Source: Pseudomonadales bacterium (GTDB lineage Bacteria; Pseudomonadota; Gammaproteobacteria; Pseudomonadales; Pseudohongiellaceae). Taken from it: DNA of 33,445 nucleotides. Shown here in pieces: positions 3,821 through 18,819 of the stretch (positions are counted from its first letter, which is position 1; every line of letters starts with the position of its first letter). The translations under genes were made by a program, and so were the position numbers. Where the stretch lies: assembly GCA_022825945.1 (NCBI GenBank), contig JAJDVS010000073.1, forward strand, positions 1-33,445. The letters run 5' to 3'. The notes under the pieces were generated by a model. It saw only the letters and a list, made by a program, of their open reading frames with translations. It had not been told where the DNA came from and did no database searches.

Positions 3821-3828
3821 GGTTTTGG

Positions 3829-3850
3829 TTCCTGTGGCGCAGGCTCCTAG
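3829..3850 (-). repeat. Solo end of palindromic element (CTAGGAGCCTGCGCC type)
   Basis: On the minus strand this reads CTAGGAGCCTGCGCCACAGG, almost identical to the ends of the 13284-13450 element. It provides the TAG stop codon of the HupE-like gene and the AGGA ribosome site of the next gene. Confidence 0.75.
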
Positions 3851-5925: not shown

Positions 5926-5965
5926 GTCATTCTGCGCGTAGCGAAGCGAAGTCGCAGGATGACGG
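5926..5965 (+). repeat. REP-like palindromic repeat (family C, copy 3)
   Basis: GTCATTCTGCGCGTAGCGAA then GCGAAGTCGCAGGATGAC. This is the inverted orientation of the copies at 3204 and 5207 and shows the same GTCATTC ends. Confidence 0.65.
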
Positions 5966-8860: not shown

Positions 8861-8921
8861 GGAGCCTGCGGCGCAGGCTCCCAGGGAAGCTCTGGTCAAG
8901 TCAGAGCTTCCCTGGGGCACA
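8861..8921 (+). repeat. Double-hairpin dispersed repeat, copy 1
   Basis: Hairpin one is GGAGCCTGCG/CGCAGGCTCC (8861-8881, one-base centre). Hairpin two is CCAGGGAAGCTCTG/CAGAGCTTCCCTGG (8881-8915, 14 perfect pairs, 7-base loop). The same two-hairpin unit recurs at 18740-18800. Smaller palindromes follow (TCGAAGC-GCA-GCTTCGA at 8962-8978, GGAGCTACGCTCC near 8998), so the gene-free stretch 8805-9159 is mostly palindromic repeats. Confidence 0.85.
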
Positions 8922-13020: not shown

Positions 13021-13077
13021 ATATGGAATCGAAGAACCTGCCAGTTGTCTTGCACTGAAGATCTGGAGGCCAAGACC

Positions 13078-13287
13078 TTGGAAGTAATTCTTGTAGCAGT
13101 TCTGGTATTGTTGTTTTTCGGGCTCGGGGTATTGCTGTATTTTCTGCCCGCCTTCGTCGCTTTCCGGCGCGAGCACCACAACCGGATGGCGATCCTGATC
13201 CTGAATATCTTCCTCGGTTGGACATTTCTGGGCTGGGTGGCCGCCCTGATCTGGTCATTCACTGCAGTGCGGTTTGCGGCACACTAG
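13078..13287 (+). CDS. Superinfection immunity-like small membrane protein
   Basis: About 69 residues with two membrane helices (ILVAVLVLLFFGLGVLLYFLP and FLGWTFLGWVAALIWSF) joined by a basic loop AFRREHHNRMAILILNIF. This matches the short family annotated as superinfection immunity protein (phage T4 Imm-like), which is common in bacterial chromosomes where its role is unproven. I chose TTG 13078 because GGAGG lies 8-9 bases upstream; the frame is open to 13045. It follows the TonB receptor by 57 bases. Its TAG stop codon is the first base triplet of the inverted-repeat element at 13284. Confidence 0.8.
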   Translation: MEVILVAVLVLLFFGLGVLLYFLPAFVAFRREHHNRMAILILNIFLGWTFLGWVAALIWSFTAVRFAAH

Positions 13288-13450
13288 GAGCCTGCGCCGT
13301 AGGAATTCGCGAAAGCGAAAATTCGCTATCGCCGCGCCCCTGGCCGGTCGATTGAGGCGAATATTGGTGGATATGCAACGAAATCGAGCGGCCTGGGGCG
13401 TGGATGAGAGCGGATTTGCAGCCGTGAATTCCCACGGCGCAGGCTCCTAG
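13284..13450. mobile_element. MITE-like 167-bp inverted-repeat element
   Basis: Both ends carry CTAGGAGCCTGCGCCGT in inverted orientation, followed by (A/G)GGAATTC and two more matching bases. Inner arms also match: CGCCCCTGGCCGGTCGATT against its complement near 13385-13405 with two differences. The whole unit could fold into one long hairpin. It encodes no protein. CTAG at both outer ends may be a target duplication or part of the termini. It fills the space exactly between the immunity-like stop codon and the next gene start. Confidence 0.75.
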
Positions 13451-13452
13451 CC

Positions 13453-14697
13453 ATGATTCGAATTGTGCAAGGCGTCGCCTTGCTGCTGCTGCCGGCAGTC
13501 ATATTCGGGCAGGCCCTGCCGCCGGGTGACCCGGCCTCGCTTGGCATGGACCTGGCAAAACTGGAACTCGTTACCGCCAGACTGCAGCGGCATATCGACG
13601 ACGGCGACATTCCCGGCGTGGTCGCGGCGGTAGCCCGCGACGGGAAGCTCGTCTACTTCGAAGCCCTGGGACAATACGACCTGGAAAACGGCAGGGAAAT
13701 GGGACCGGACACCCTGTTCCGCATCTATTCGATGACGCGGCAGGTCACCAGCACCGCCGTGCTGCAGCAATACGAACAGGGCAAGTTCGATTTCGACGAT
13801 CCGATCTCGATGTATCTGCCCGAATTCGCCGACCAGCGCGTGCTGCTCGACCCCGGCAGCACCGACATTACGCAAACCCGCGAGCGCATCGGCGACATTA
13901 CCGTGGCGCATCTGCTCACGCATACTTCCGGGCTCGGGTCTCGCAGTTCGGCGCTCTATCGCGAAAACAGCGTGCGCGACAAGTCGATCAGTCTCGACGA
14001 AATGACAAGCAATGCCGCGCGTATCCCGCTGTTCCACGATCCCGGCACGGCCTTCCGCTATGGCATCCACGCCACCATTCTCGGCAAGCTCGTCGAAGTC
14101 TGGTCGGGTCAGCCCTTTGACGAATACCTGCAAGAGAACCTGTTCGAACCCCTCGGTATGGACAGCACGATGTTCTGGGCCGAAGGCGAAGATGCCGAAC
14201 GGCTCGCGGTGGTCTACCGGCCCGCGGACGGTCGCCTGAATCCTTACCGGATCGAACAGGCGCCATGGACCTCACGGCCGCCGCTGATCGAAGGCGGCGT
14301 CGGACTGCTCTCCACCGTGCCCGACTTCATGCGCTACAGCCAGATGGCACTCAACAAGGGCGAACTCGACGGCGAGCGCGTACTGCGGGAGGAAACTGCG
14401 GAACTCATTTACCGCAACGCCGTGCCGGACGCCGCCATGCCCATCGGTACCGGCGGCTATTGGCTCGGCTCGGGCTGGACCCTCGGCGGTTTCAACCTGG
14501 TCATGGACTCTGATGCCTATGATTTCCCGGTCAGCAACGGCGAAATCTGGTGGGACGGCTCCGCCGCCACGCGCTATTTCATCGACCCGAATCTCGACAT
14601 GGTCATGGTCATCATGTCCCAGGTCTCCCCATCCCGCGGCGGCGGTTTTCGCGAGAACTTCAAACGCCTGGTGGACGAAGCCATCATCGACCGGTGA
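13453..14697 (+). CDS. Beta-lactamase-fold serine hydrolase (class C type), SxxK altered
   Basis: 414 residues with a signal peptide (MIRIVQGVALLLLPAVIFGQ). The fold is that of class C beta-lactamase-related esterases and peptidases: FRIYSMTR at 89-96, LLTHTSGLG at about 154-162, FRYGIHATILGKLVE with Tyr203, and a late WWDGSAATRYFIDP. In active members the first motif is SxxK with Ser as nucleophile and Lys as base; here it is S93-M-T-R96, an Arg in place of Lys. The Ser and Tyr are kept. It may be catalytically weakened, changed or inactive. It acts outside the cytoplasm; the substrate is unknown. It starts 2 bases after a palindromic element. Confidence 0.85.
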   Translation: MIRIVQGVALLLLPAVIFGQALPPGDPASLGMDLAKLELVTARLQRHIDDGDIPGVVAAVARDGKLVYFEALGQYDLENGREMGPDTLFRIYSMTRQVTSTAVLQQYEQGKFDFDDPISMYLPEFADQRVLLDPGSTDITQTRERIGDITVAHLLTHTSGLGSRSSALYRENSVRDKSISLDEMTSNAARIPLFHDPGTAFRYGIHATILGKLVEVWSGQPFDEYLQENLFEPLGMDSTMFWAEGEDAERLAVVYRPADGRLNPYRIEQAPWTSRPPLIEGGVGLLSTVPDFMRYSQMALNKGELDGERVLREETAELIYRNAVPDAAMPIGTGGYWLGSGWTLGGFNLVMDSDAYDFPVSNGEIWWDGSAATRYFIDPNLDMVMVIMSQVSPSRGGGFRENFKRLVDEAIIDR

Positions 14698-17190: not shown

Positions 17191-17250
17191 AGAGCCTGCG
17201 CCACAGGAATTCGCTATCGTCGCACCCTTGGCCGATTGATTGAGGAGAAC
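17191..17250 (+). repeat. Half copy of the 13284 palindromic element
   Basis: GAGCCTGCGCC, then AGGAATTCGCTATCG, then CCTTGGCCGATTGATTGAGG follows the left half of the 13284-13450 element, with about 16 bases deleted. Its end supplies the GAGGAG ribosome site of the gene at 17257. Otherwise the gene-free stretch 16952-17256 holds no feature I can name. Confidence 0.7.
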
Positions 17251-17795: not shown

Positions 17796-18740
17796 ATGAA
17801 CAGAATCCTTGCAAGACTTGCGCTGGCGGCGACGGTATCCGCCGCGGGCAGCGCATCCATGGCCCAGAACGACTGGGTGGAACTTGCCGTGCACAATTTC
17901 GGCGCTCCCATCAATACCATGTGGGCCGAAGGGGAATTATCCTTTGCCGACGATGGCACCATGGTCTATTGCAGCGCGCGGCAGGACATGGCCGTGGCGC
18001 CCGGTGACCCGAAAGACCTGTATATCGCCACTTTCAACCAGGAAACCGGCACCTGGAACACGCCGGTGAACATGGGCATGCCCGTCAATGCGGCGCCCGC
18101 CACCGATGTGGACCCCCTGCGCAAGGGCGATGACCGTGAGCCCTGGATCACCGCAGACGGCAATACCATCTACTTCAAGTCCGACAGGTTGGCGACCACA
18201 TCGCCGCAGAACAACAATGACATCTTCATCACCCGCAAGGTGAATGGCGAATGGACCGAGCCGGAACTCATGGGCTACCCTATCAGCACCGACGAAGGCG
18301 ATGAACATTGCCCGGCGATTCTGCAGGACGGCGAAACGCTTTGCTTTGCATCGCGACGGGCGGGCGGCTTCGGCGGTTCCGACATTTACTGCTCGCGGCA
18401 GGATGCCGCCGGCAACTGGATGGAGCCGGTGAACCAGGGGCCGAACATCAATACCGAAGGCGAGGAATTCCATTTCAGCCAGGCCGAAGACGGCACCGTG
18501 TACTTCACCTCAAGCCGCCCCGGGGGCTACGGAGGCATGGATATCTGGGGCGCCGCCGCCGAAGGCGCGGACAGTTGGGGGCCGGCCTTCAATCTCGGGC
18601 CACAGGTGAATACCGCGGGCGCCGACATGTGCCCGGCGCTGCCCCCCGGCCAGGAAACGATAACCTGGTTTTCCTCCCGGGCCGACAACAGCCTGGGCAA
18701 TATCGACATATTCTGGACCAGCAGGCTGAATGTTGACTAG
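17796..18740 (+). CDS. Secreted PD40 beta-propeller protein (TolB-like)
   Basis: 314 residues with a signal peptide (MNRILARLALAATVSAAGSASMAQ). It contains four or five repeated blades with the PD40 pattern: EPWITADGNTIYFKSDR, HCPAILQDGETLCFASRRAG, FHFSQAEDGTVYFTSSRPGG and CPALPPGQETITWFSSRAD. Between them are GGSDIYCSR, GGMDIWGAA and GNIDIFWTSR. Such propellers bind proteins or ligands in the periplasm; TolB and OmpA-linked relatives share them. The specific role is unknown. GGAAGG lies 8 bases upstream. The TAG stop is the first triplet of the palindromic repeat at 18738, and the sterol operon begins after that repeat. Confidence 0.85.
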   Translation: MNRILARLALAATVSAAGSASMAQNDWVELAVHNFGAPINTMWAEGELSFADDGTMVYCSARQDMAVAPGDPKDLYIATFNQETGTWNTPVNMGMPVNAAPATDVDPLRKGDDREPWITADGNTIYFKSDRLATTSPQNNNDIFITRKVNGEWTEPELMGYPISTDEGDEHCPAILQDGETLCFASRRAGGFGGSDIYCSRQDAAGNWMEPVNQGPNINTEGEEFHFSQAEDGTVYFTSSRPGGYGGMDIWGAAAEGADSWGPAFNLGPQVNTAGADMCPALPPGQETITWFSSRADNSLGNIDIFWTSRLNVD

Positions 18741-18800
18741 GAGCCTGCGCCGCAGGCTCCCAGGAAGCTCTGATCAAGTCAGAGCTTCCTTGCGGCACAG
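18740..18800 (+). repeat. Double-hairpin dispersed repeat, copy 2
   Basis: Hairpin one GGAGCCTGCG/CGCAGGCTCC (18740-18760); hairpin two AGGAAGCTCTGA/TCAGAGCTTCCT (18762-18790, 12 perfect pairs, 5-base loop). It is nearly the same unit as 8861-8921, same strand. It could act as a transcript end or mRNA stabiliser between the PD40 gene and the sterol operon. Confidence 0.85.
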
Positions 18801-18819
18801 GCTCTTGGGCCGTTACAAT
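18790..18819 (+). promoter_or_regulatory. Candidate promoter of the sterol operon
   Basis: TTGCGG (18790-18795), 18-base spacer, TACAAT (18814-18819). It starts at the last base of the hairpin repeat and lies about 65 bases before the first gene. It is the best promoter-like pair in the gap, but the -35 is imperfect. Confidence 0.35.

Follow-up and report, generated by a model that had tools for sequence, protein, structure and literature searches.

The window analysed here, a 33,445-nucleotide stretch of DNA, is contig C23 of a 2.64-Mb assembly in 113 contigs (G000). Between two of its genes, one for a superinfection-immunity-like small membrane protein and one for a serine hydrolase of the beta-lactamase family, lies a 167-bp unit (13284-13450) with CTAG at each edge. 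The initial annotation had described this unit as a MITE-like element of a family it could not name, and both its extent and its CTAG edges can be read directly in the window. Comparison of copies and of empty sites places the TA and the outer C or G of each CTAG outside the element, leaving a MITE of 161 bp (Table 1). The ends are indeed inverted, although their pairing measures 25 bp, with 2 mismatches in the window copy, rather than the 27 or so bases first proposed; the repeat of the MITE consensus is also 25 bp long. As had been claimed, the inner arms pair too, so that the fold runs almost end to end. The 167 nt have a fold energy of -65.8 kcal/mol as DNA and -115.5 kcal/mol as RNA, with z = -13 for either and none of 200 shuffles equally stable. 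The unit was also said to encode nothing, and we found no gene of its own, the open reading frames that overlap it being mechanical ones that run beyond its limits. No promoter or terminator was called in the MITE region, and an Rfam search of it returned chance matches only, far under the cut-off.

Further traces of the same element occur in the window. A half copy, previously placed at 17191-17250, is present and ends three bases earlier; its edge reads CCAA in place of CTAG. A solo end, previously placed at 3829-3850, is likewise present at slightly shifted coordinates. Two palindromes of 21 bp that consist of MITE ends only had escaped the initial annotation.

Table 1. Features of the MITE locus and of related copies in the window
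Feature	Position	Strand	Basis or remark
Upstream gene, superinfection-immunity-like small membrane protein (PF14373)	13045..13287	+	TAG stop arises at the junction with the MITE
Downstream gene, beta-lactamase/serine-hydrolase family (PF00144)	13453..14697	+	ATGA overlap with upstream gene in congeners
MITE, 161 bp, near-perfect palindrome	13287..13447		BLAST of at least 40 copies; 120/131 unique copies exactly 161 bp; empty sites
Left terminal inverted repeat	13287..13311	+	Both ends of IS1182-family element L194 have the same outer 19 bp, GGAGCCTGCGCCGTAGGAA
Right terminal inverted repeat	13423..13447	-	23/25 match to left repeat
Left copy of duplicated target dinucleotide TA, within CTAG	13285..13286		Bases 1-2 of the upstream gene's TAG stop; copy flanks, empty sites
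Right copy of duplicated target dinucleotide TA	13448..13449		Copy flanks, empty sites
Degenerate half copy of the MITE (left half)	17191..17247	+	16-bp internal deletion between ATTCGC repeats, then truncated mid-element
Solo MITE end, right terminal repeat, then TAG	3827..3847	-	Window sequence
21-bp ends-only palindrome, GGAGCCTGCGGCGCAGGCTCC	8861..8881		CA/CA flanks; facing-end length survey, window sequence
21-bp ends-only palindrome	18740..18760		Junction TAG serves as stop of ORF 17796-18740

The window copies belong to a large and dispersed family. BLAST recovered at least 40 full-length copies in the window's genome at 94-100% identity, and the MITE end GGAGCCTGCGCC has 402 matches genome-wide at up to 1 mismatch, against 34 for the reversed pattern. 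A 31-bp core of the MITE occurs 73 times in this genome and 128, 9 and 33 times in three congeners, with a reversed control of 0; a fourth congener carries a diverged version of about 90% identity. Altogether 5 of the 37 congeners searched contain the MITE and the rest lack it. A search with the exact end located the family in MAGs labelled Pseudomonadales, Gammaproteobacteria or Candidatus Rariloculus versatilis, and no copy was found in the viral contigs, phages and plasmids searched. The MITE end is also present on a 3.2-kb contig labelled Latescibacterota (L184, JAJECR010000361.1), which may reflect mis-binning or transfer between phyla. Had the window's copies been the only ones, with no sign of movement, a MITE would have been doubtful; instead, copies are many and dispersed, and relatives retain empty sites.

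The locus of the window copy is itself one of these empty sites. In two congeners the insertion is absent and the gene junction reads GCGGAAGACCACCCATGA (G032) or GCGGAAGACGAGCCATGA (G018), the TGA stop of the upstream gene overlapping the ATG start of the downstream gene, while the window junction reads GCGGCACACTA[161]TAGCCATGA. The window flanks, when joined over a single TA, align without a gap to both congeners; therefore the ancestral gene pair had no space between its members. The target was a CTAG that also supplied the TAG stop, and insertion kept the TAG. The exact fit between the two genes that had been noticed earlier is thus real, and it arises because the MITE targets CTAG, here the TAG stop of an ATGA-overlapping pair, and insertion regenerates TAG; it does not call for a special intergenic function. 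The insertion moved apart by about 165 bp an overlapping, probably translationally coupled gene pair, and a hairpin beside the start codon could lower translation of the downstream gene.

Other copies show the same target. In a survey of 131 unique copies with flanks, the three outer bases mostly read CTA at the left end (78 copies) and TAG at the right end (78 copies); the chief alternatives are CCA/CTG and TGG/CAG. Three copies carry rare dinucleotides that match on both sides (AA/AA, TC/TC and CT/CT), as expected of a 2-bp duplication inside C-NN-G. Orthologous loci without the MITE display the pattern of simple insertion, such as AGGAATA[161]TAGGCGG against the empty AGGAATAGGCGG at site L015, or CTT[161]TTGG against CTTGG at a further clean site; a few sites, for example L124 and L271, align uncleanly with relatives. 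At most sites a 2-bp and a 4-bp duplication are inseparable because the outer C and G are also the element's end bases. L015, the one non-CTAG site of this kind, favours 2 bp (TA), since the outer base on the left is A there, yet C is still the element's end base. The target itself is rare: outside the elements CTAG occurs 0.22 times per kb, whereas base composition would give 3.5, and its frequency is about half of the Markov expectation.

A search for a transposase with the same ends had been proposed as a check, and such elements were found in the IS1182 family. L194, in another MAG (CAR3_bin_20), is an intact insertion sequence with 1,567 bp between its ends and a 440-aa transposase that matches the IS1182 model NF033551 at E = 7e-104 (348 bits, cut-off 270). 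Each of its ends matches the start of the MITE consensus at 19/19 positions, and CTAG stands at both flanks. The window's genome contains a decayed copy of an L194-type transposase, 77% identical over residues 1-179, with the end GGAGCCTGCGCCGTAGAAACTG; one CTAG is all that separates this decayed IS1182 copy from a MITE at G000:C40, and G018 has the same junction. In G022 at least four IS ends lie at contig edges; their four flanks all differ, and each ends in CTAG at the element. The MITE shares 16-19 bp of its end with these decayed or broken IS copies of the three genomes, and the likeness is limited to these terminal bases. Two IS1182 elements, on plasmids of Halomonas sp. KO116 and Marinobacter sp. 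M3C, have the end GGAGTCTGCGCGG directly preceded by CTA; like L194 and like the MITE, they have CTAG flanks and ends that are the same or nearly the same (GGAG(C/T)CTGCGC). They encode a transposase of about 440 aa, partly broken in Marinobacter, whereas the MITE encodes none. As the IS1182 elements of L194, the MITE-bearing genomes and these plasmids agree, the end sequence and the target are traits of this IS1182 subgroup. Among congeners, transposase matches of about 76-80% identity are confined to the MITE-bearing G000, G018 and G022; the search detected none in the MITE-bearing G032 and G036. In the 113 contigs of the window's genome we found one decayed copy and no intact IS1182 transposase with MITE ends.

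Several other candidates for an autonomous partner were rejected. Two pairs of ends in the window's genome, 1.3-1.5 kb apart (L038 11498-12830 and L039 5463-6985), are degraded and have ordinary genes between them, and most DDE_Tnp_1 loci lack MITE ends. An IS of about 1.4 kb at about 1265-2657 of both L106 (G000:C36) and L111 (G032:C46) lies at CTAG and encodes a 385-aa transposase that scores best with the IS5 family (NF033581); its ends differ (CAGGCTGCGGAAAAACCC). Tandem repeats of the ACTACCCAAGAAA type occupy L042 3500-3720 (G000:C40), right beside the decayed IS1182 copy.

We conclude, with a probability of roughly 93%, that the MITE is a non-autonomous transposon mobilised in trans by an IS1182-family transposase with the same ends and inserted at CTAG. 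On the sequence, the family left unnamed earlier is thus an IS1182-linked MITE. Such an element would carry nothing but the ends that a transposase recognises. The transposase of an IS1182-family IS with the same 19-bp ends would bind them, excise or copy the 161-bp palindrome and insert it at CTAG, with duplication of the central TA. As CTAG is scarce in coding DNA and often holds a TAG stop, which insertion regenerates, surviving copies accumulate just behind genes. Old copies decay, in many cases probably because the hairpin collapses and leaves a palindrome of 21 bp. We infer the actual movement in trans from the ends and target that the MITE has in common with IS1182 elements.

The family is new and its kind is known, with a direct precedent in MITEPye1 of Paracoccus yeei. 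MITEPye1 is a gene-less intergenic element of 159 bp with 18-bp ends like those of IS1182-family elements, a long hairpin and short direct repeats of 4 bp; it has 1-3 copies per chromosome, and IS1182 transposases have been proposed as its mover (PMC11578231). Likened by description, it is the closest precedent, being gene-less, intergenic, hairpin-forming and IS1182-like at its ends as is the window MITE, which under a 4-bp CTAG convention would measure 159 bp too. The window MITE differs in having 73-128 cores per genome, in belonging to another host class and in its duplication, for which 2 bp is the best reading. The result is an IS1182-linked MITE family of more than 100 copies in some genomes of uncultured gammaproteobacteria, described along with the autonomous element it pairs with, the rule of its target choice and the way its copies decay.

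Placement beside genes bears on whether the MITE has been domesticated as a regulatory hairpin (for transcript stability, as a terminator or as a gene spacer), so that copies are kept beside stop codons. Contexts were taken from about 0.7 Mb of the window's genome and parts of five relatives and were judged with a simple codon-usage gene caller. None of 84 copies lies inside a gene, whereas 77% of positions drawn at random do, as do 34% of the remaining CTAG sites. At 24 adjacent gene ends the stop codon is the TAG of the junction, compared with 8 among 668 random intergenic points. This location at gene 3' ends and the strong hairpin speak for domestication. So does a covariation test in which both-side changes at MITE base pairs, that is, compensated changes, number 110 against a shuffle mean of 38; this excess is no proof of RNA function, as shared subfamily ancestry and self-correction of the palindrome can yield it. 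Measured against intergenic CTAG sites as background, the preference for stop codons is not significant (27/84 vs 59/261, p = 0.08). Intergenic CTAG sites without a MITE are nearly as often stops, and therefore target choice and the loss of harmful insertions explain the placement. With no terminator or promoter called, and with recent copies and empty sites that speak of spread rather than conservation, we regard domestication as unlikely. The placement illustrates how gene ends can take up a mobile element without harm, since the TAG stop within CTAG is restored on insertion.

The mode of integration could also differ from simple insertion. IS1272, an IS1182-family member with 16-bp inverted ends, is reported to replace target inverted repeats without duplication (PMC5678879). 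At one ambiguous locus the window's genome has a MITE where a 98%-identical relative has a 21-bp palindrome, which would fit such a replacement. By that paper's account the transposase family is the same, but replacement is not seen at the empty sites of the window MITE, and clean empty sites that lack a target palindrome and show a duplicated dinucleotide contradict it at most sites, making it very improbable. The TA within CTAG is also a target of IS630, and RUP and Correia (NEMIS) elements are short palindromic high-copy MITEs at TA targets that are linked to IS630-type transposases. The window MITE resembles them in form and in its TA duplication inside CTAG, but a DDE_3 (PF13358) transposase is present in none of the five MITE-bearing genomes, while IS1182 transposases with matching ends are found among them, and there is next to no room for an IS630/Tc1-mariner origin. 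A REP/BIME-type element moved by a RAYT (TnpA-REP, Y1 tyrosine transposase) would likewise be a short palindrome between genes, with the motifs GTAG and GGAG, but it can be dismissed almost entirely, given that Y1_Tnp (PF01797) was not found in the window's genome and that the MITE has target duplication and true terminal inverted repeats, which are not known as features of RAYT elements.

Within the IS1182-linked family, the 21-bp palindromes form a discrete class. The spacing of facing ends has two sharp peaks, at 161 bp (99) and at exactly 21 bp (about 20 real cases). At up to 2 mismatches, the 21-mer GGAGCCTGCGCCGCAGGCTCC has 48 occurrences in the window's genome, 61 in G058, 30 in G018 and 30 in G032, with controls of 0. 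It is the exact remainder of a deletion between two CGCAGG repeats, one in a variant MITE end (about 28% of ends have this variant) and one in the opposite end. The shorter GCGC repeat would leave an 18-mer, which hardly occurs (3 vs 64). At one locus the window's genome has the 161-bp form and G058 the 21-bp form, with flanks 98-99% identical. The match to the deletion product and this locus therefore make collapse of the long MITE palindrome the likely origin of the 21-mers, presumably by slippage. Compared with MITE flanks, those of the 21-mers are poorer in TA and richer in CA, TG and CG, and 22 of 52 21-mers lie between divergent genes, against 10 of 84 MITEs; age and selection may account for these differences. 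Alternatively, the 21-bp palindromes could be mobile themselves, as two transposase sites with one base between them that insert at C-YR-G with a 2-bp duplication. One insertion-like site, GC-CA[21]CA-GG against GCCAGG at L260:8648, is of this form, and we hold such mobility to be improbable; if true, it would make the 21-mers exceptionally small transposable units.

Two further repeats accompany these elements. The inverted repeat GGAAGCTCTGATCAAGTCAGAGCTTCC at window positions 18761-18808 adjoins a 21-bp palindrome and is closed by another MITE-type end; with about 14 pattern matches on both strands in the fetched stretches, it is possibly a separate small repeat. A second dispersed repeat, starting GTCATTCTGCGCG...GTCGCAGAATCTC, occurs in the window at 5926 (+), 12838 (+) and 3239 (-), has 183 matches in about 0.72 Mb fetched from the window's genome (reversed control 0), and frequently adjoins MITE ends.
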